Assembly: GCA_025786725.1 (NCBI GenBank)
Contig: JAHLTZ010000065.1
Location: forward strand, 1 to 64,000
Reading direction: 5' to 3'
From: Syncephalis fuscata
Lineage: Eukaryota > Zoopagomycota > Zoopagomycetes > Zoopagales > Piptocephalidaceae
Length of the DNA: 64,000 nt
Part shown: one piece after another, positions 8,861 through 24,281 of the stretch
Layout of the letters: every line of letters begins with the position of its first letter
How positions within the stretch are numbered: position 1 is the stretch's first letter
Program-made: the position numbers and the translations under genes
The notes under the pieces: generated by a model
Told to the model about the DNA's origin: nothing
The model's database searches: none
Seen by the model: the letters and a program-made list of their open reading frames with translations, nothing else

Positions 8861-10188
8861 TACTTTGACTTCCACATTTTGAGTCCTCAAATCAAAATTA
8901 GTTCCAATTAAAGTCAATTGTAAGAAAATGGTTATTCTATGGCTACTGTTACTGCTGTTATGCATAACAAAACACAAGTACAGTGTCTTCATTTACCTAC
9001 TTTGAAATTCATGAGGCCGATCATTGCTGCTGGCCATGCGTAGAAACATCGATCGAATATTAATAAAAGCCATTGATCGCGATTCCATATCGTCCCGCAG
9101 TTGTTGTTGTTGTTGTTACTAGGTACAGTGTGGTTTCTTGCATCTGAATAGTCTCTTCTATCGCCAATCTTGTACTGTTGCATTTTGGGCATATTTGCGA
9201 TGTAAAATACTTATTTATGATGACAAGAAGGTAGAACAACTAGTACTTCTGATGTTGACCATTGTCTTGAGCATTCTTGGTATCGACTTGGTAGGTGCAG
9301 TTTATTTGCCAACCATTAATGAAGCAAATGGCCTTTACCATATGCAATAATGATATACTGAGTGTCTTCGCCAGGAAGATCTTGTGGCGACAGTTGTAAC
9401 CAGAATATACGGCATGCCGTTGAGGTTACTTGAACAGGTGCTAATGTAAAATAAGAGAAATAAAGACTAGGGATTGAATATGTTCTTTATTGATGTTCAA
9501 ATACACATGCTATTTATATTGTTATGTTCGGCATTAGCATATAATGTATTACTGAATAGAGCAATAGGATAGTAATAAGAAAGATAATGAAATAAGTAAA
9601 TAAAAATGTGGGAATTAAAGTATAGTAGAAACATTAAAGCCATTTAATATTAAAAGTCGTTGTTATAAAACATACTGCCAATAAATTACTAAGTGTAATA
9701 GGAAATACAATCAAAGTCAATGTTTCTTAAATACAAGTTTAGTCATAGAAAGTGTCATTATTTTAATAATAAAATGCAATTATATTCTAGAAGATGGAAT
9801 AATAGACCAATATTTTATATGAATAAATAAATGGTGCGATGTTAATGCCAGCAGAAACATGCACAGTATATTTAGTACAATAGCCAGTGGTGAACCAAGG
9901 CTTTCTGATTTTTTACCACCTATTATTATAAGAAATTAAACTGACGCTGTTGCATCAACATCATAATCAAATGCAACACTTTATTGCAGATAGCATGAAC
10001 TACTATTTAATATTTATTAACACATATCGGACATTGAAAATAGTGCTGATTAATTAACACTGATTAATGCAATTGAAGTTGATATGGCACTGCTTTATAC
10101 ATAGCACTTCTTAGTAATAAAAACTGATCGACGGTTTATTATTTGAATTACGGATCTTTTGTCCCCAGTTTGAGGATGGGGATGCAAA
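8861..10188. mobile_element. TA-flanked inverted-repeat element, copy 1, with shared 3' extension
   Basis: A 762-bp unit (8861-9622) has imperfect terminal inverted repeats of about 20 bp: TACTTTGACTTCCACATTTT at the left and the complement of TACTTTAATTCCCACATTTT at the right, both including a TA dinucleotide. The same unit recurs at 22984-23710 (same orientation, 35 bp shorter through an internal deletion) and at 20616-21377 (inverted, diverged). Copies 1 and 2 also share the next 566 bp (9623-10188) almost without change, ending at GCAAAG. No transposase was recognised. A plus-strand frame at about 9180-9350 encodes a membrane-segment-like stretch that is partly preserved in the diverged copy. 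The TA ends suggest a Tc1/mariner-type, non-autonomous element; that class is inference. Confidence 0.75.
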
Positions 10189-12366: not shown

Positions 12367-15000
12367 ATTGTTGCTTTATTTAGCTAGTAAAGACTGAATA
12401 TATACAAATCATTAACTACTGTTTGATTCGGTTCTTTAGTCAGTAATGAACTAATGGTTTATAGCAAGCTGCCTCACAGCCATTACTGTTTAACTGAAAA
12501 TTGCACACAATGAAACAATGTAACAAGCGTAGCGATGACTGATTTGCTGGCTATATTGTGTTGTGTGCCAGGTATTATGAAAGAGGTTTTACGGCTCATT
12601 TTCCATAAAATAGTTGGTTATAGGTAGCTCAATCAGTTTATATTTATTAAATGGTTTATATTTCGTGCATCTTTAATATCATTAAGACCTTGGTCATCCT
12701 ATAGCAATTGCTATAAATATTTAAACTCGCGTGAGTATTACCAAAAAATACATTTAAATGTTCAATGTAGCCATGCGATTACATAAACGTATTTGTTCAA
12801 TTAAATACCAGTCCGAGTTTAATGTGAATGCATTATACCTGTCGTCTTCATATCTTCTTTCAATTGATATAGCTTTTTTGACTTTCTTATGAATTCATCA
12901 TATTTCGCAAAAGTAAACTCCTGCTTTTTTGTATTAAACAGTATGTTATTGCTATTTGCGGGAATTGGCTCAGCATTAATAAGTGGTAGTAGTCCATCGT
13001 TAAAAGCATAACAAAGTTGCCGATAGCTTATCGACAAACAAACGTGCTGATAGCTTACTAATAAACAGGTGTGCTGTCAGTTTTTGCATAGATTTGGACT
13101 GCCATTTATAATGTATTAGGTACTCGAAAATAGAAAGTTTAATTTTTGATGTATATTGATAAAATAAGACTCGAATATAGCTCAATATAGTCGGTGCAGA
13201 TTATATAGACGCTTTGATGGCTGATATAATGCACTCTGAAGCTTTGGCTTAATTATACTAATCTAAATTATGTAGATTTGGCTTGAATTTTTGTATGAAT
13301 TTATTCAAAAAAGTTGTAATTAGCGCTTTGAAGTCTAATAAATTAACAGTGGATGCGTTGAACACCAAATACGCTTTTTTAACGTATCAATGTAATAATT
13401 ATTCTCAAATGCAGTTAATAAAGAATTACTTGTTAATCCAATTGTGTTGTATGCATCGACAGAAACCAGAGGATATATATAATTGAAAATTTAGTGGGAT
13501 TTAGTAGACGTGCCATAAATATTAGTAATCGTATTTGTTATTATTAATAGAGCAATAAAATAATATAAATTGCTTACTATTGTTTTTTTCTGCTTTACAA
13601 TATAATATTTCCATTTAAATTGTTTTTATGTATGCTTCATTCACTAAATAAATAAAGATTCAATGCAATAAACTAGAGTGTATTTAAGAATAAATGCGAA
13701 TAACAAAATGATGCATATTATTCTATGCTTTAAAACATTTCTGTGGCCATATGTATTTGCAATAATTGTGTAGATTGTAGGCAATAGAACCATGCAAACT
13801 ATAATGTTAGCATATGTTTATTGCATGCAGTTATAGCTAGTACTTGTTAGAATGACACTTTTATAGTAGATATTTTACTGATATTAAATGTATACCTAGC
13901 CTAATTTCAGATCCAATGGCTTGTATCGTCTTTTCAGTTTAACAAAGTAGTTATTTCATAAATTTGTTCTATTTTCACTGGCTTTAATAAAGTTGTTTAA
14001 ATTGTGCCACTAATACATATTCATTTGCAAATACAATTAAATAGCATGGATTTCGATGATACGACAATCAGTAGTATTTCTGCTACTGTTGAATCTATTC
14101 AAGTGGAAAGATAGAATGACTAGGTTTGCCGGTCCATTTTAAATCAGTACAACTGCCGTCGATAATATAGACTTTTTTTTACTAATAAATAAACATTTAA
14201 GATATTGTAACGCTTCCAAGACTGGCTCTTGCTCCCCGTGTCAGTAGTGTCAATTATTACCAAATACAAAAACTCACCAAATCAGTACGCAGCCAACTTG
14301 CTATTTTACATATAAGTACTTACCATTAGTAACAAACAATAAAGCATTAGTATTAGTTCTACTCCAACTTTGATTTTATATTTTTATTGGTGTCTTATCT
14401 AGATTTGCAAATTGACCATTGTTGTAAAAATCACGACAGTGCACTAAATTACAATATATTAATATTGTAAATTGCAAAAACCATATAACAAAGCTAAAAG
14501 TTTATTACTAACTGTATTCTTTCGGTAAATTTTGATTCATCTTGTTTATTACTTTTGGTCAATTGCATATAATATAATTTCGTCATCTCCATTCACGTAG
14601 TTGATTTGTCTATTTATTTGTTATATAATATTCCATGGTTTATTTTCATGTTTTATTAAAAAGCGTCTTTATTCTAATTTCAGCATACTATTATTTAGCT
14701 ATATAATAATGATAGCTTTGCTACTATCCATACCAATTTATGCATATAACTTACATGATATAATCATACACATTTTTAAATTTAACTATTTAATTAATAA
14801 TTGTCATTATTGAATTTAAATAGAACATGATTATAGATATAGCAATTTGATTATAGATATAGTTAAAATGAAACCATAAGTTTATTACGATAAGCTTGCA
14901 CAGTTGAATAGAAACAACTAGATGCAAGCCTGTCGATAAAATAATGATTCCATTGGTTAAAGACTGGATAAACCGGAGCATTGGCCAAAACTTGATATAT
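12367..15000. other. Long AT-rich intergenic stretch downstream of URA5
   Basis: No recognised gene. On the minus strand 12819-13037 is a 72-codon frame (MSISYRQLCYAFNDGLLPL...) with protein-like composition but no family, neighbouring exons or confirmed start. Next to it, 13020-13080 holds short degenerate repeats of the type GCTGATAGCTTAC. The last 240 bases (about 14880-15120) probably form the 3' UTR of the microexon gene, with AATAAA on the minus strand at 14881-14886. Confidence 0.45.
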
Positions 15001-15120
15001 AGGTGGACTGGACGGCGTAGTTGTCAAATGGTCTTGCTTTTCACCGAATATATACCTAAAGTGTATTGGACTAGTGGCTTGATTGCACTACCAATGCTGA
15101 TGTCTTGAAACCATCGACCA

Positions 15121-18100
15121 TTCTGTATTTACAGATAAAGATATCATATGCCATATAATTAATGAATAAGCCATCAATATATAATGCTACTTACAGCCTA
15201 TTATTATTAAGTTATTGATGCACATAATAAATAACATGTGATTAATGGATAATCAATTAATATACAGTAACTTACAATAATCTAATGTTGATTTGTTGAT
15301 GGATACAATGCATGGCGCATAATTAGTGTATAGTCAGTTAATACAAAATACAACTTACTGCCTATTAATATTAAGTTATTGATACATAATACATTGTATA
15401 TAGTTAGCGCATGTTCAGTTAATACATAATATAACTTACTGCCTATTAATATTAAATAATTATTACAATTAGTAAATAATATAATTATTGTATAATCAGT
15501 TAATATACAGTATCACTTACACCCTATTAATATTAAACAATTAGTATAATTAGTAAAAAGCATAATTAATGTATATTCACTTAATACACAATATCACTTA
15601 CATTCTATTGATATTAAACAATTAGTATAATTATTAAAAGCATAATTAATGTATATTCGGTTAATATACAATACTACCTACCCCCTATTCATATTAAACA
15701 ATTGATACAATCAGTAAATAGCATAGTGAATGTATAGTCAGTTAATATACAATATCACTTACTCTCTATTAATATTAAACAATTGGTACAATTAGTAAAT
15801 AGCATAATTAATGTAGTCAGTTAATATACAATACCACACGGGGGACATTGCTAGCCTAGTGGTATGGCAGCGTCTCCCGAGCTGTAAGGCTTCGGGTTTA
15901 AACCCCAGTTTAAACCAATCCTTAAGTGGAAAATCCTCCCCTCCCCAGTTTTCTCTAGTAAACAGATTGCAAACCAGAAACCCAAGTAGGTCCGGAAACA
16001 AGATCTTGGCCAGAATAGCCGAAAAAAAAACAATTGGGACCAACTTCAAAAGAAATAGTGCTGTGTAGCACCATTCAAAAGAAGATGGCCCCCGCGTGGA
16101 ATCTATATGGACCGGATTTTGCGCAAAAATGTGGCAGTCCACCCGTTAATTTGGAGATGTCCAAAATAGTGGGAAGCAACGCAAATTTGACAAAATGCGC
16201 AGCGGGGGCTCACAAGCTCTTCTAATAAATAAATATATAATACTACTTACTGCCTATTAATATTAAACAGTTAGTACAATGAGCAAATAGCGTAGTTAAC
16301 GTATAGCCAATTAATATACAATACCACTTACAAACTATTCATATTAAATAATTGGTACAATCAGTAAATAGCATAATTAATGTATAGTCAGTTAATATAC
16401 AATACCACTTACACCCTATTAATATCAAACAATTAGTACAATTAGTAAATAGTATAGTTAATGTATAGTCAGTTATTATACAGTATCACTTACATCCTAT
16501 TAATATTAAACAATTGGCACAATTAGTAAATAGCATAGTTAATGTATAGCCAGTTAATATACAATATCACTTACTAGCTAATAATATTAAGCAGTTGGTA
16601 CAAATAGTAAATAGCATAGTTAATTTATAGTCAGTTAATATACAATGTCACTTACTAACTATTAATATTAAACAATTGATATAGTTATTAAATAGTATAG
16701 TTAATGCATATTCAGTTAATACACAATATCACTTACTCTCTATTAATATCAAACAATTAGTACAATTAGTAAATAGCATAATTAATGTATAGTTGGTTAA
16801 TATACAATATCACTCACTCCCTATTAATATTAAATAATTAGTACAATTATTAAATAGCATAGTTAATCTATAGTTGGTTAATATATAATACCACTTACAT
16901 GCTATTAATATTAAATAATCGGTACAATTAGTAAATAACATAATTAATGTAGTCAGCTAATATACAATATCACTTACAATCTATTAATATTGAATAATTA
17001 ATACAATCAGTAAATAATATAGTTAATGTATAGCCAATTACTATACAACTTACTGGCTATTGATATTAAATAATTGGTGCAAGCAGTAAATAGCATGGTT
17101 AATGCATAGTCAATTAATATACAATATCACTTACGGTCTATTAATATCAAACAATTAACATTATTAGTAAATAGCATAGTTACTATATAGTTAGTTAATA
17201 TACAATATCACTTACCGCCTGTTGATATTAAACAATTGGTACAATCAGTAAATAGTATAGTTAATGTATAGTTAGTTAATATACAGTATCACTTACATTC
17301 TATTAATATTAAACAATTGGCACAATTAGTAAATAACATAGTTAATGTATAGCCAGTTAATATACGATACAACAGAGAACGTTGCTAGCCTAGTAGGTAA
17401 GGCAGTGTCTCCCGAGCTGAAGGCTCCGGGTTTCAAACCGCAGTTTAAATCAATCCTTAAGTGAACCCCACCCCCGTTTATCCAAAAAAACATGTTTAAC
17501 AAGTAGGTCCGGAAACAAGACCTTGGCCAGAATAGCCGAAGAAAAACAATTGGGACCAACTTCAAGAGAATAGTGCTGTGTAGCACCATTCAAAAGAAGA
17601 TGGCCCCGCATGAAATCTATATGGGCCGGATTTTGCGCAAAAATGTGGCAGTCCACCCGTTAATTTGGAGATGTCCAAAATAGTGGGAGTAGCGCAAATT
17701 CTTGAATTATGCGCAGCGGGGGCTCACGAGCTCTTCAAAATAAAATAATACGCAATAAAACTTACGATCTATTAATATCAAGTTGTTGATAAAAACAGTA
17801 TATGGATATAATTAGTGAGTAATTAATTCATATACAATACAACTTACCTCCTATTAATATTAAGTTATTGATATATAATACATAATATATAATTAGTACA
17901 TAGTTAGTTGATATGTAATGTTACTTACTAACTATTACATCGAGTAATTGGTACACAGTGCATGACACATAATTAGCACATAGCCAGTTAATACACAATG
18001 CTACTTACCGCCTATTAATATTAAGTTATTGATATACATAGCACAGAATATATAATTAGCCAATGTTCAATTAATATACAATATAACTTACATTCTATTA

Positions 18101-18763
18101 GTATTAAGTTATTGATATACATGGTACATGGCATATAATTAGTTTATAGTCAATTAATATACAATACACCTTACGATCTATGGCATTAAGTTGTTGATAT
18201 ATGCAATACATGATATAATTAATTTATGTAATTAATATACAATATCACTTACCGCCTATTAGTATCAAGTTGTTGATACACATGGTGTATAGCATGCAAT
18301 TAGAGAGTAATTAATCAATATACAATACAACTTACAGCCTATTAATATTAAGTTATTTATACGTATAATACATGGTACATAATTAGTGCATAGTCGGTTA
18401 ATATATAATACCACTTACTGTCTATTAATATTATTTATACGTATAATACATGGTACATAATTAGTATAATCAGTCAATATATAAACTTACAGCCTATTAA
18501 TATTAAGTTATTTATACGTATAATACATGGTACATAATTAGTGCATAGTCGGTTAATATATAATACCACTTACTGTCTATTAATATTAGGTTAGAAATAC
18601 TGTTAGTAAGCATAATAATATAATATATCTATTGCTATTGAAACATACAACGACGAACCAAAGCTGGTTTATCATCCATCTTGATTGATCTAGCATTCAC
18701 TATGGCTGTAGTGGCTATCAAAGCCACAAAGACGGTACAAACGACGGCAATAGAAAGCTTCAT
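15121..18763 (-). CDS. Secreted cysteine-rich peptide encoded by 33 microexons (32 of one codon length)
   Basis: Exon 1 (18763-18649) encodes a signal peptide (MKLSIAVVCTVFVALIATTA) and a short propeptide ending LVRR, and stops in phase 1 at a perfect GTATGT donor. Minus-strand units then follow, each with an ATTAATAG acceptor, three bases and a GTAAG donor; the introns are about 78 nt. Joining 32 triplets and one hexamer, and adding two bases of the last exon (15122-15121), gives 219 nt, 72 residues and TAA. Residues 39-72 follow the Arg-Arg and hold six Cys at 43, 46, 51, 63, 68 and 72 (C-X2-C-X4-C-X11-C-X4-C-X3-C); the last residue is Cys. All introns are phase 1 and the stop codon is split by the last intron. 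A Kex2-like cut after Arg38 would release a 34-residue, three-disulfide peptide. Its function is unknown; effector, antimicrobial or signalling roles are possible. Splicing is inferred. Confidence 0.85.
15836..16225 (+). mobile_element. tRNA-derived SINE-like insertion, copy 1
   Basis: This insertion of about 390 bp is GC-richer than its surroundings and enlarges one intron of the microexon gene. Near its left end are pol III-like boxes: A box TAGCCTAGTGG (15852-15862) and B box GGTTTAAACCC (15895-15905), spaced as in a tRNA gene. The flanks AATATACAATACCAC and AATATATAATACTAC look like an aged target-site duplication. A second copy lies at 17373-17745. The body has no protein similarity that I recognise, and open frames inside it are not conserved between copies. 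Confidence 0.75.
17373..17745 (+). mobile_element. tRNA-derived SINE-like insertion, copy 2
   Basis: Same sequence as copy 1 with scattered substitutions and deletions, same orientation, also inside an intron of the microexon gene. The A-box region TAGCCTAGTAGG is near 17386-17397 and the B-box-like GGGTTTCAAACC near 17429-17440. It ends in an A-rich AAAATAAAATAAT tail. Both copies are antisense to the host gene. Confidence 0.75.
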
Positions 18764-18960
18764 GGTGTTATTGAATTGTTAAGACAAACAAATAAAAGCG
18801 ATGGTAGAGTGTGGCTGGTATAGAGTGGAGAGTAGTGCGTGTATAGCAAGAAGTGGAGTGTGGTTGGTATAGAGTGGAGAGTAGTGTGTGTTTAGTAGGA
18901 AGTAGAATGTGATGATGATATCGCAGTTGGTTGTGTATATTTTGTGGGCTATTTAAACTT
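18764..18960 (-). promoter_or_regulatory. Promoter/5' UTR of the microexon gene with a direct repeat
   Basis: On the minus strand a TTTAAATAG box (about 18949-18957) lies about 190 nt upstream of the ATG. Between them are two copies of a pyrimidine-rich 35-bp repeat containing CTCCACTCTATACCA (plus-strand positions about 18808-18842 and 18856-18890). Pyrimidine tracts like this are common in strong fungal promoters; any binding factor is unknown. Confidence 0.5.
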
Positions 18961-19087
18961 ATGACTATGTTGAGGTATTAGTATACTGTAGTATACAAGA
19001 TATACCATTGATGTGTAGTATGAACCAATAAAACAATTCAAATAATGGTTTGAGGTGCACATGTACCAATAAATTCATGGCGTGATG

Positions 19088-19556
19088 GTATGCTCCCAGT
19101 CTTGATTTCGACCTGCTTGGCATTTACACAAATAACACGGCAATTCCAATGAGCATTACATATGCGACAATGTACATCATTTTGTATTTTTTGTTACACG
19201 GTTTAACTATTTAGTGAAAGCATGATATTGTTTGGCTTTGTAAAAGCGATAATGATATCTTTGCCACCATTTTTACCATTCAGTCCTCAATATCTGTATG
19301 CATACTAAACAGCACACAACCTGCCCGGTCTTTACTTCAATCTGCTAGTCATTTGCACGAGTGCTGTAGCAGTGTTCATAATCCAGTACATATGCGATAA
19401 AAATAGACATGTTCGCCTGTATTTTTTGTTGCACAATTTAACTATTTGGTAAAAACAAGTATATTGCTTGGTTTTGTAAAAGATAATGATGTCTGTCCCA
19501 TTGCTACCGATTCAGTCCTCAATATCTGCATGCATACAGAATAGCACACAACGCTG
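19088..19556. repeat. Diverged tandem duplication of about 235 bp
   Basis: Two adjacent units, about 19088-19322 and 19323-19556, share ordered blocks: ACATATGCGA, GTATTTTTTGTT, TTTAACTATTT, GCTT(T/G)GT(T)TTGTAAAAG, and ATTCAGTCCTCAATATCTG followed by GCATGCATAC or similar and AGCACACAAC. They lie about 330-790 bp upstream of the microexon gene. No coding frame was supported. Confidence 0.7.
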
Positions 19557-20615
19557 ATGCAAAAACAAGTTAATACATCAAACTAGTATTTTATACAGGT
19601 TTTTACTGCTATACATAGGTCAGTTGTAATTTCTCAAATTATAAAGTGTATTGATTGGTACATGTATGCATTTCATTTGACACTATGCCCATTGTTATGG
19701 GGTAATCATTGTTCTAAATTTACAAATGCATCACATCCAGGCATATCATACTACATGTTGTCAACCACCATCATTCAAATGGCGGCCAATCCAAATGACC
19801 TGAAATCGACTATACAATAATTACTGTTTGCAGCATGATGCATCATGGCATTTTAAGCAATGGAACATTCCAATAAGCCATTTTTGTCATTAATTTTCAG
19901 TTGCAAACTAGATTGCATCGACTAAACTACACGCAATACAATATGCAGCCGCTGGATTAGACACAATAGAAAGTTCTAACCAAATACCAGAAATTGCGAG
20001 TGCATAATGTCAATGGATTGCATATCAATTGGTAATCATCCAAGGCCTAAGTGCTGCTTACATTTCTAAAATCACTTCTGATAAGTCAAGCAAGATAGAA
20101 TATAGAAGAACAAGCCAAAGCAGAAACCAATAGAAAACAATTGGCAGCTCAAAGATTTACTGGTTTAACCCATAGCAAATCACTATAGCTATGCTAAGCT
20201 AAACTGCATTTATCAAAAGTTGGCTGCTTTTCATGCGGCTAGAACAACAGCAACGTTAAACAGAGATAACACACAGAAAACAAAGAGTTGTAAATAAAAT
20301 TAAATCAATGAGTTTTGGTAATTAAACAACTTATCGTCGTCACTACAATTTATAATTCTGATTATTTGTACGGATAAATATTTACAATCACATTGTAGCT
20401 TCTTATATACTTGCATTTACACGATCATCAACTAAAACAACTAGTATAAGGCTTAATCTAATTATTTACCAGAGTAAGCAGCTAATATTATACATTATTG
20501 AAATAATAGAAAAACATATTAATTTATTTATTAACCATTAATAAAAAGCTATATAGCTATATATTAAAGTAAAACATTGGATTGAGCACGTAGTATTTAT
20601 ATAAGCAAGCTACTG
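19557..20615. other. Intergenic, no gene seen
   Basis: AT-rich sequence with short frames only. Nothing supportable between the tandem duplication and the inverted repeat copy. Confidence 0.4.
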
Positions 20616-21377
20616 TACTTTGATTTCTACATTTTTATTTACTCATTTCATTATCTTTTCTTATCGCTATCTTATTGTTCTATTCAGTGATACATTATAT
20701 GCTAATGCCAAATATAACAATATAAATAACATGTGTATTTGAACATCAATAAAGAACATATTCAATCACTAGTCTTTATTTCTCTTATTTTACATTAGCA
20801 CCTGTTCAAGTAACCTCAACGGCATGTCGTATATTCTGGTTACAACTGTCGTCACAAGGTCTTTCTGATGAAAACACTCAACCTATCATTATTGCATATG
20901 GTGGAGACCGATTTGCTTCATCGATAGTCGGCAAATAATCTGCGCCTACCAAGTTGATGCCAAGAATGCTTAAGAGAATGGTGAACATTAGGAACGCTAG
21001 TCGCCCTACCTTCTTGTCATCATAAATAAGTATCTTACATCACAAATATGCCCAAAATGCAACAGTACAAGATTGGAAAATAGAAGAGACCATTTAGATG
21101 CAAGAAACCACACTGACGTAGTAACAACAATAACAACTGCAAAATGACATGGAATCGCGATCAATGGCTTTTATTAATATCCAATCAATATTTCTACGCA
21201 TGGTCAACAGTAATAATGATCGATATCGTGAATTTCAAGTAGTAAAATGAAGACACTATACTTGTGTTTTGTTATGCATAACAGCAGCAACAGTGGCCAT
21301 AGAATGACCATTTTATTACAACCGACTTTAATTGGAACTAATTTTGCTTTGAAACGCAAAATGTGAGAGTCAAAGTA
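20616..21377. mobile_element. TA-flanked inverted-repeat element, copy 3 (inverted, diverged)
   Basis: Same 762-bp length as copy 1 but opposite orientation and clearly diverged. Ends: TACTTTGATTTCTACATTTT (20616-20635) and AAAATGTGAGAGTCAAAGTA (21358-21377). It lacks the 566-bp extension found next to copies 1 and 2, which supports the 762-bp unit as an independent mobile unit. The membrane-segment frame of copy 1 can be followed here on the minus strand, with several synonymous changes but also an in-frame TGA. Confidence 0.75.
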
Positions 21378-22983: not shown

Positions 22984-24281
22984 TACTTTGACTCCCACAT
23001 TTTGAGTCCTTAAAGCAAAAATTTGTTCCAATTCAAGTCGCACTGTTATGCATAACAAAACACAAGTACAGTGTCTTCATTTACCTACTTTGAAATTCAT
23101 GAGGCCGATCATTGCTGCTGGCCATGCGTAGAAACATCGATCGAATATTAATAAAAGCCATTGATCGCGATTCCATATCGTCCCGCAGTTGTTGTTGTTG
23201 TTGTTACTAGGTACAGTGTGGTTTCTTGCATCTGAATAGACTCTTCTATCGCCAATCTTGTACTGTTGCATTTTGGGCATATTTGCGATGTAAAATACTT
23301 ATTTATGATGACAAGAAGGTAGAACAACTAGTACTTCTGATGTTGACCATTGTCTTGAGCATTCTTGGTATCGACTTGGTAGGTGCAGTTTATTTGCCAA
23401 CCATTAATGAAGCAAATGGCCTTTACCATATGCAATAATGATATACTGAGTGTCTTCGCCAGGAAGATCTTGTGGCGACAGTTGTAACCAGAATATACGG
23501 CATGCCGTTGAGGTTACTTGAACAGGTGCTAATGTAAAATAAGAGAAATAAAGACTAGTGATTGAATATGTTCTTTATTGATGTTCAAATACACATGCTA
23601 TTTATATTGTTATGTTCGGCATTAGCATATAATGTATTACTGAATAGAGCAATAGGATAGTAATAAGAAAGATAATGAAATAAGTAAATAAAAATGTGGG
23701 AATTAAAGTATAGTAGAAACATTAAAGCCATTTAATATTAAAAGTCGTTGTTATAAAACATACTGCCAATAAATTACTAAGTGTAATAGGAAATACAATC
23801 AAAGTCAATGTTTCTTAAATACAAGTTTAGTCATAGAAAGTGTCATTATTTTAATAATAAAATGCAATTATATTCTAGAAGATGGAATAATAGACCAATA
23901 TTTTATATGAATAAATAAATGGTGCGATGTTAATGCCAGCAGAAACATGCACAGTATATTTAGTACAATAGCCAGTGGTGAACCAAGGCTTTCTGATTTT
24001 TTACCACCTATTATTATAAGAAATTAAACTGACGCTGTTGCATCAACATCATAATCAAATGCAACACTTTATTGCAGATAGCATGAACTACTATTTAATA
24101 TTTATTAACACATATCGGACATTGAAAATAGTGCTGATTAATTAACACTGATTAATGCAATTGAAGTTGATATGGCACTGCTTTATACATAGCACTTCTT
24201 AGTAATAAAAACTGATCGACGGTTTATTATTTGAATTACGGATCTTTTGTCCCCAGTTTGAGGATGGGGACGCAAAGTAAA
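22984..24281. mobile_element. TA-flanked inverted-repeat element, copy 2, with shared 3' extension
   Basis: Nearly identical to copy 1 over its whole length, including the extension 23711-24281. It lacks about 35 bp just inside the left end. The outer ends read TA/CTTTG at the left and CAAAG/TA at the right, so the longer 1.3-kb form also looks like a TA-bounded unit here. In copy 1 the right flank is GA. The near identity of copies 1 and 2 indicates a recent duplication. It ends 99 bp before the PEX10 start codon. Confidence 0.75.

Follow-up and report, generated by a model that had tools for sequence, protein, structure and literature searches.

Can a gene be divided so finely that nearly every codon of its mature product occupies an exon of its own? 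The question is raised by a minus-strand locus of the fungus Syncephalis fuscata (Zoopagomycota, Zoopagales, Piptocephalidaceae). It lies in the window analyzed here, a stretch of 64,000 nt (positions 1 to 64,000) of contig C262 (JAHLTZ010000065.1) in a 28,950,602-base assembly of 299 contigs (GCA_025786725.1), to which all genome-wide counts below refer. A sequence-only reading of this stretch had described a signal-peptide exon followed by 33 units, each made of an acceptor, three bases (once six) and a donor. Our analysis indicates that the gene very probably belongs to a large S. fuscata family, in which one-codon exons would be joined by ordered splicing into a secreted, mostly cysteine-rich peptide.

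Layout of the window gene and of its family

Exon 1 of the window gene codes for MKLSIAVVCTVFVALIATTAIVNARSIKMDDKPALVRR and contributes one further base. Its N-terminus, judged by inspection, is signal-peptide-like (MKLSIAVVCTVFVALIATTAIVNA, with the cleavage point also placed by inspection), and a short propeptide and an Arg-Arg site follow. The GTATGT donor of this exon is accompanied by a TACTAAC-like sequence. Downstream there are 33 microexon units, 32 with an exon of 3 nt and one with an exon of 6 nt (15281-15276). The general form of a unit is TTAATATTAATAG-NNN-GTAAGT; the donor is GTAAGT in 30 units and GTAAGG, GTGAGT and GTAGGT in one each. All but two of the 34 introns measure 69-80 nt; the two exceptions, of 466 and 485 nt, each contain a dispersed-repeat insert. 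The introns repeat one another in tandem at a distance of about 81 bp and are 70-82% alike. When the exons are joined the product ends ...LVRR YSYSCDQCVRDQCDPNSWKITRWFCKREWCSNYC, stop: 34 codons after exon 1, six Cys including the last residue, and Arg-Arg directly before the mature part. The TAA is split by the last intron and is completed by the terminal exon, which begins AATGGTCGATGG at 15122. Both the anatomy and the stop-free joined frame given by the sequence-only reading were therefore borne out.

Sequences of this kind were found throughout the genome. With three mismatches allowed at most, the initial 27 bases of exon 1 are found at 193 places (none for the reversed control), and 39 other scored matches are 76-92% identical to exon 1. 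A genome search with the protein P0121, an intronless relative, scored at least 150 places. The 26 exon-1 places in the fetched loci comprised 16 with an array and the conserved terminal exon, two in which the array is cut off by the end of the locus (L029 and L056), and eight with an uninterrupted mature part (two each in L018 and L019, and one each in L014 plus, L023, L026 and L027). A further array gene, L058, lies beyond these 26 places. In intronless L027 and L059 the 3′ sequence of the terminal exon comes after an uninterrupted TAA. At L014 1835 (+) the family signal exon runs into a long Pro/Ser-rich uninterrupted frame and not into a Cys-rich peptide. At L012 2561-2444 we observed a second family terminal exon without an exon 1 recognised at the search threshold; a more diverged family gene may be present near this position.

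The distance of three bases between acceptor and donor was specific genome-wide. The motif ATTAATAG-N3-GTAAGT was found 1,727 times in the genome and never in the reversed control, while the same motif with N4 was found three times (control 1) and with N5 once (control 0). The six-base pattern ATATTAG-N6-GTAAGT occurred 70 times (control 3). In the 20 fetched regions L009-L028 a search for TAATAG-N(L)-GTAAGT with L from 1 to 15 yielded 189 hits for a length of 3 nt, a single hit for each of the lengths 1 and 14 nt, and no others. Since the N3 motif is fitted exactly by 144 of the 327 microexons parsed below (44%), extrapolation from the 1,727 exact motifs suggests that the genome may hold about 3,900 one-codon exons. 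At G000:C2:520293-522764 exact motif units are 241-1,125 bp apart, as against the usual 81 bp; this is either a different type of array or one whose other units miss the exact motif.

Arrays were parsed with a splice-chain parser that has no preference for multiples of three among lengths 1-12 and uses no homology. It requires a GT or GC donor and an AG acceptor, and leaves exon length unscored up to 12 nt. The training sites for its splice models were TAG/CAG acceptors and GT[AG][AG]GT donors flanking 3- or 6-nt exons, and the full consensus is not required. The settings were altered after results had been obtained: the first version did not admit GC donors and lost codons in L020, L021, L022, L024 and L028, and when GC donors were allowed the L024 reading gained the C-x2-C-x3-C spacing of P0121. 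After a looser setting, whose outcome is weighed below, exons longer than 12 nt were penalised; this setting merged units in L017, so that gene was taken from the first parse and re-located. L029 and L056, with loci too short to reach the terminal exon, and L001-L008, L030-L055 and L057, which overlap other loci, were left out. L014 (minus), a damaged copy, was dropped from all final counts, so that 16 parsed array genes remained; exclusion of L016, which has a 1-nt exon, left 15 genes for the coding counts.

The 16 genes contain 327 microexons, 316 of them of 3 nt, ten of 6 nt and one of 1 nt; 326 are thus symmetric and preserve the phase. All 16 genes have an exon 1 that ends in phase 1, and up to 37 microexons follow one another in a single gene. 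The lengths of the 343 introns (median 78 nt) fall into remainder classes 0, 1 and 2 as 141, 72 and 130. Exonic positions next to a donor normally help U1 pairing. Among 315 aligned units, donor positions +1 to +6 are conserved at 94-100% and the exonic positions are free: of the 83 aligned columns, the exon columns have the highest entropy (1.81, 1.93 and 1.94 bits, the next being 1.80) and are flanked by invariant AG and G. The donor is GT in 98% of these units and GC in the rest, with the acceptor AG in all 315, as in ordinary spliceosomal introns. It might be supposed that the intervening segments are removed from the DNA or bypassed in translation, which would likewise explain joined coding. 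Nothing specific points to such a process, and the canonical ends (GTAAGT or GC variants, and TAG), together with the GTATGT and TACTAAC-like sequence of exon 1, render it extremely improbable.

Coding constraint and relatives of the joined product

We permuted the order of microexons within each gene, which keeps composition and breaks the codons that span junctions. The joined reading of the 15 genes has one internal stop in 326 codons, as against a mean of 20.7 and a minimum of 8 in 5000 shuffles, and 56 Cys, as against a mean of 27.3 and a maximum of 42. The single internal stop is the early stop of L012 itself, located just before its terminal exon. With the near-duplicates L013 and L021 omitted, 298 codons gave one stop (mean 18.2, minimum 9) and 49 Cys (mean 24.1, maximum 36). 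In the exon-length-penalised parse the other two phases had 4 and 25 stops, with 1 and 9 Cys; Cys is the better discriminator against the first alternative phase because that phase also has few stops. In the same parse Cys accounts for 55 of 340 mature residues. At least one Cys is present in 13 of 15 genes (none in L012 and L058), and exactly six in seven of the eight genes with at least 19 microexons, the eighth (L028) having five. In L021 and L022 the stop codon begins at +14 relative to the last junction; in the other 13 of the 15 genes its start lies between -4 and +2 bases from that junction.

The peptides of the window gene and of L017 align without gaps over 33 residues, and each of the six Cys is matched by a Cys (score 105; maxima in shuffles 56 and 63, 0 of 5000 in each case), even though 19 of the 32 introns compared between these genes have their best match somewhere other than the corresponding position. 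L013 and L015 are nearly identical to each other. L021 and L022 have near-identical introns, and L022 carries eight extra complete units, in frame; the predicted peptides differ by eight codons, and both have six Cys. Within an array the introns are alike and the codons differ, so it seems from this comparison that the intron-plus-codon unit is duplicated or deleted as a block and the codon then diverges.

The peptide of L024, joined from 35 microexons, was also compared with the genome. It matched C104:2896-3003 and C212:181925-182032, both free of stops, with a match of 54% over 35 residues (E 7.7e-6). The uninterrupted DNA of C104 runs in step with the joined codons of L024, and NYPYPS is common to both. 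The nucleotide score was 33.5, and none of 2000 shuffles exceeded -16; for this test the C104 target was the reading frame minus its first codon, there being no Arg-Arg to cut at, for observed and shuffled sequences equally. The protein score over the mature part was 109 (shuffle maximum 48 in 5000). The alignment has single-residue gaps only, with no block missing. Of the 103 bases preceding the C104 ATG only the last ~52 resemble the family, a limit such as a reverse-transcribed copy of an mRNA might show. L024 also matched intronless P0121, which is uninterrupted in two identical places (score 75, shuffle maximum 54, 0 of 5000). The C104 and P0121 matches are the strongest grounds for the joined reading.

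These results bear on a simpler account, namely that the array is an ordinary minisatellite within one large intron and the AG-NNN-GT spacing a meaningless legacy of the founding unit. Equal spacing is indeed expected by descent when similar introns recur about every 81 bp. However, skipping of the array would join T to AA and create a stop right after Arg-Arg, so that no mature peptide would be made, and a minisatellite leaves stop avoidance, the Cys excess, the diversity of the codon columns, peptide conservation and the uninterrupted relative unexplained. We consider this account very improbable and reject it, together with the skipped-array reading, on the strength of the permutation, phase and homology tests. 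The same permutation result, the conservation between the window gene and L017, and the intronless paralog lend strong support to the proposal in the sequence-only reading that the gene would encode a small secreted Cys-rich peptide from single-codon exons.

Several observations weigh against the joined reading and need to be set beside these. For the window gene alone the permutation result is modest: in 20,000 shuffles 1.7% had no internal stop, 8% had at least six Cys and 0.4% had both. The looser parser setting placed a 26-nt exon in a repeat insert of the window gene, so that the reading stopped early; in L017 it produced an exon of 59 nt. When the genome was searched, with no positive control, for uninterrupted counterparts to the window, L025 and L020 peptides, none was found; the same three peptides are not clearly similar to P0121 (585, 738 and 107 of 5000 shuffles were as good), and L028 resembles the intronless relatives weakly (2 and 24 of 5000 shuffles were as good). 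C104 lacks Arg-Arg. The public model P0122 of the L024 gene consists of exon 1 and two 3-nt microexons, and then reads through the third donor into the intron. Finally, some copies are damaged and appear to be decaying: one exon of L016 is a single nucleotide, and in L014 (minus) exon 1 is shifted out of frame and another exon measures 2 nt.

Such damage, and the insertion of repeats into the introns of the window gene, could be taken to mean that the arrays at large are decayed copies of intronless genes, no longer in use. Yet in 15 of 16 parsed genes the joined frame stays open at least until 4 bases before the terminal exon, the donors of 315 units are conserved as described above, and both inserts of the window gene sit within introns, with the microexons spared. 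We consider general decay very improbable.

Among 5.8 billion proteins the family peptides had two matches (E up to 0.01), both annotated in S. fuscata; one of the two was reproduced letter for letter from L024. A Pfam search with seven family precursors gave nothing above cut-off: six were without a family and L025 had one below cut-off. The PDB search with the window peptide gave no match. An AlphaFold model of P0121, made with no alignment, had a weak mean predicted local distance difference test score of 66 and short helices; nothing was drawn from it.

Features of the window

Positions of the features of the window gene are collected in Table 1.

Table 1. Positions of the exons of the window gene and of associated features (window coordinates)
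Feature	Position	Strand	Remarks
Exon 1	18649..18763	-	ATG, 38 codons and first base of codon 39; donor GTATGT
Microexon 1, ACA	18574..18576	-	
Microexon 2, GCT	18491..18493	-	
Microexon 3, ACA	18419..18421	-	
Microexon 4, GCT	18336..18338	-	
Microexon 5, GCG	18253..18255	-	
Microexon 6, ATC	18175..18177	-	donor GTAAGG
Microexon 7, AAT	18092..18094	-	
Microexon 8, GCG	18009..18011	-	
Microexon 9, TTA	17929..17931	-	
Microexon 10, GAG	17848..17850	-	
Microexon 11, ATC	17766..17768	-	
Dispersed-repeat insert in 466-nt intron 12	17377..17737	.	resembles a short interspersed nuclear element (SINE-like), not confirmed; ends approximate; aligned to second insert
Microexon 12, AAT	17297..17299	-	
Microexon 13, GCG	17216..17218	-	
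Microexon 14, ACC	17135..17137	-	
Microexon 15, CCA	17054..17056	-	
Microexon 16, ATT	16978..16980	-	
Microexon 17, CAT	16899..16901	-	
Microexon 18, GGA	16818..16820	-	donor GTGAGT
Microexon 19, AGA	16737..16739	-	
Microexon 20, TTA	16656..16658	-	
Microexon 21, CTA	16575..16577	-	
Microexon 22, GAT	16494..16496	-	
Microexon 23, GGT	16413..16415	-	
Microexon 24, TTT	16332..16334	-	
Microexon 25, GCA	16251..16253	-	
Second dispersed-repeat insert, in 485-nt intron 26	15837..16223	.	copy of the same repeat; ends approximate
Microexon 26, AGA	15763..15765	-	
Microexon 27, GGG	15682..15684	-	donor GTAGGT
Microexon 28, AAT	15602..15604	-	
Microexon 29, GGT	15521..15523	-	
Microexon 30, GCA	15440..15442	-	
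Microexon 31, GCA	15359..15361	-	
Microexon 32, ATTATT	15276..15281	-	sole 6-nt microexon
Microexon 33, GCT	15195..15197	-	
Terminal exon	14863..15122	-	AA of split TAA, then family-conserved 3′ region; lower bound approximate (extent of DNA similarity)
Upstream region common to many fetched family members	18764..20500	-	about 70-92% identity; upper bound approximate

The conserved region upstream of exon 1 extends for more than 1 kb among many fetched members, far beyond the needs of a promoter. Within it, at 18804-18901, two 49-bp direct repeats 88% alike probably belong to the 5′ untranslated region.

A repeat of ~690 bp is present in both orientations in the window (20594-21286, 23043-23716 inverted, and 8953-9628) and near many fetched family genes; it has 512 candidates genome-wide, of which 40 were scored. 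It may be a mobile element, with the family spreading in its vicinity. The repeat first suggested that the window gene is the cargo of such an element; this was rejected, as the copies occur in both orientations and borders of an element could not be demonstrated. Scans of the window with Rfam at gathering thresholds and for tRNA genes gave no matches. The best match of the Lon gene of the window is a protein of Syncephalis pseudoplumigaleata (83% over 75% of the query). Introns were sought for comparison in this Lon gene, whose match was a single uninterrupted piece.

Proposed splicing model, known systems and meaning

From the sequence evidence we infer the following course. The precursor would begin with a conserved signal peptide and a short propeptide, which in most cases terminates at a dibasic (Kex2-type) site. 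The mature peptide that follows would be hypervariable and mostly Cys-rich; in array members this part would be split into phase-1 exons of one codon, rarely two, between tandem-copy introns of ~78 nt. Only three bases separate each 3′ splice site from the next 5′ splice site, which would make exon definition hard sterically and stepwise intron definition the better choice. The claim of the sequence-only reading that a 3-nt exon is defined more than 30 times in one transcript thus probably names the wrong mechanism, as three bases leave no room for it. Every intron is equipped with a strong GTAAGT donor and a TTAATATTAATAG-type acceptor, so that each removal would leave the preceding exon three bases longer and placed directly before the next donor, and ordered intron definition would be the simplest model. 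Full inclusion would give the mature peptide, with the last intron splitting or directly preceding the stop codon. A cut at the dibasic site present in most members (L011 has GR and C104 neither) would release a peptide of about 9-39 residues, and tandem gain or loss of intron-plus-codon units would change it by whole codons. Conotoxin-type superfamilies likewise combine a conserved signal peptide and propeptide with a hypervariable Cys-rich mature peptide; the likeness concerns the layout of the precursor. Syncephalis species are described as mycoparasitic (PMC10386755), and our guess for such an organism is that the peptide is probably secreted and used against the host or competing fungi.

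Several known systems approach this arrangement. Micro-exon genes (MEGs) of schistosomes are reported to encode secreted or exposed products and to have ~80% of the coding region made up of short, symmetric exons, 6-36 bp long, so that the frame survives skipping (PMC5825161). The S. fuscata genes share with them the symmetric exons (326 of 327); a secreted product would be predicted for them from the signal-peptide-like N-terminus. They fall outside the MEG size range, with 316 of 327 exons of 3 nt, and also differ by their tandemly repeated introns, their occurrence in a fungus and their mostly Cys-rich mature peptides. The exons of aphid bicycle genes are likewise longer than one codon. These genes are described as having ~17 exons on average, with many unusually small internal ones that share a phase and begin at the second position of a codon; megacycle contains over 100 microexons, and bicycle products are fast-evolving putative effectors (PMC9168663). 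Small single-phase internal exons at codon position 2 are found in S. fuscata too, in another organism and another protein family. In recursive splicing adjacent intron segments are removed stepwise, with a 3′ site nearly touching the next 5′ site (PMC8605326; PMC10809524). At such ratchet points AG lies directly against GT and nothing is left, whereas the S. fuscata units have three bases in between, would leave one codon per step, and are thus not ratchet points. Exons of 1 nt are reported as validated in plants, in APC11 and VPS55 (PMC8831610), and a 3-bp exon in Drosophila homothorax (PMC7392893), so spliceosomes can include exons of this size. Those are isolated cases, unlike the runs of up to 37 in S. 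fuscata. Among the matches listed for open-licence PMC literature, titles and the starts of abstracts revealed no precedent for serial one-codon exons. We place the arrays with the microexon genes, at a limit that is not known to have been described. No other genome is known in which many genes would have an intron for each codon, repeated tens of times along a transcript.

It is conceivable, if rather unlikely, that the microexons are real but used combinatorially, any subset being skipped with the frame kept, so that one gene would yield a library of peptides. All but one of the parsed microexons are multiples of three, and every unit runs from phase 1 to phase 1; schistosome MEGs are reported to make variants by skipping (PMC5825161), and the tandem array of dual-specific sites in human polyubiquitin is reported to splice stochastically (PMC10809524). 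On the other hand, Cys spacing is kept between the window gene and L017 and largely between L024 and C104, and six Cys recur in seven of the eight long arrays, which points to full inclusion as the product under selection. The alignment of C104 with L024 has gaps of single residues and no missing block. Ordered joining of all codons remains our preferred reading. A broader proposal is tentative: a codon-by-codon gene system with intron-plus-codon as the unit of peptide evolution, in which each transcript could yield a combinatorial Cys-rich library, conceivable because every unit is frame-neutral.

If confirmed in RNA, the arrays would be an extreme of gene splitting, one intron per codon. They would offer a natural test of how a spliceosome deals with 3′ and 5′ sites three bases apart, and of whether intron definition can run strictly in order. 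With full one-codon splitting, the splicing machinery would have to add every amino acid singly. P0122, the one public model checked, is wrong after the second microexon, so that counts of fungal peptides may be too low. For the family itself, confirmation would mean that short secreted peptides can evolve by duplication and deletion of single codons with the frame intact.

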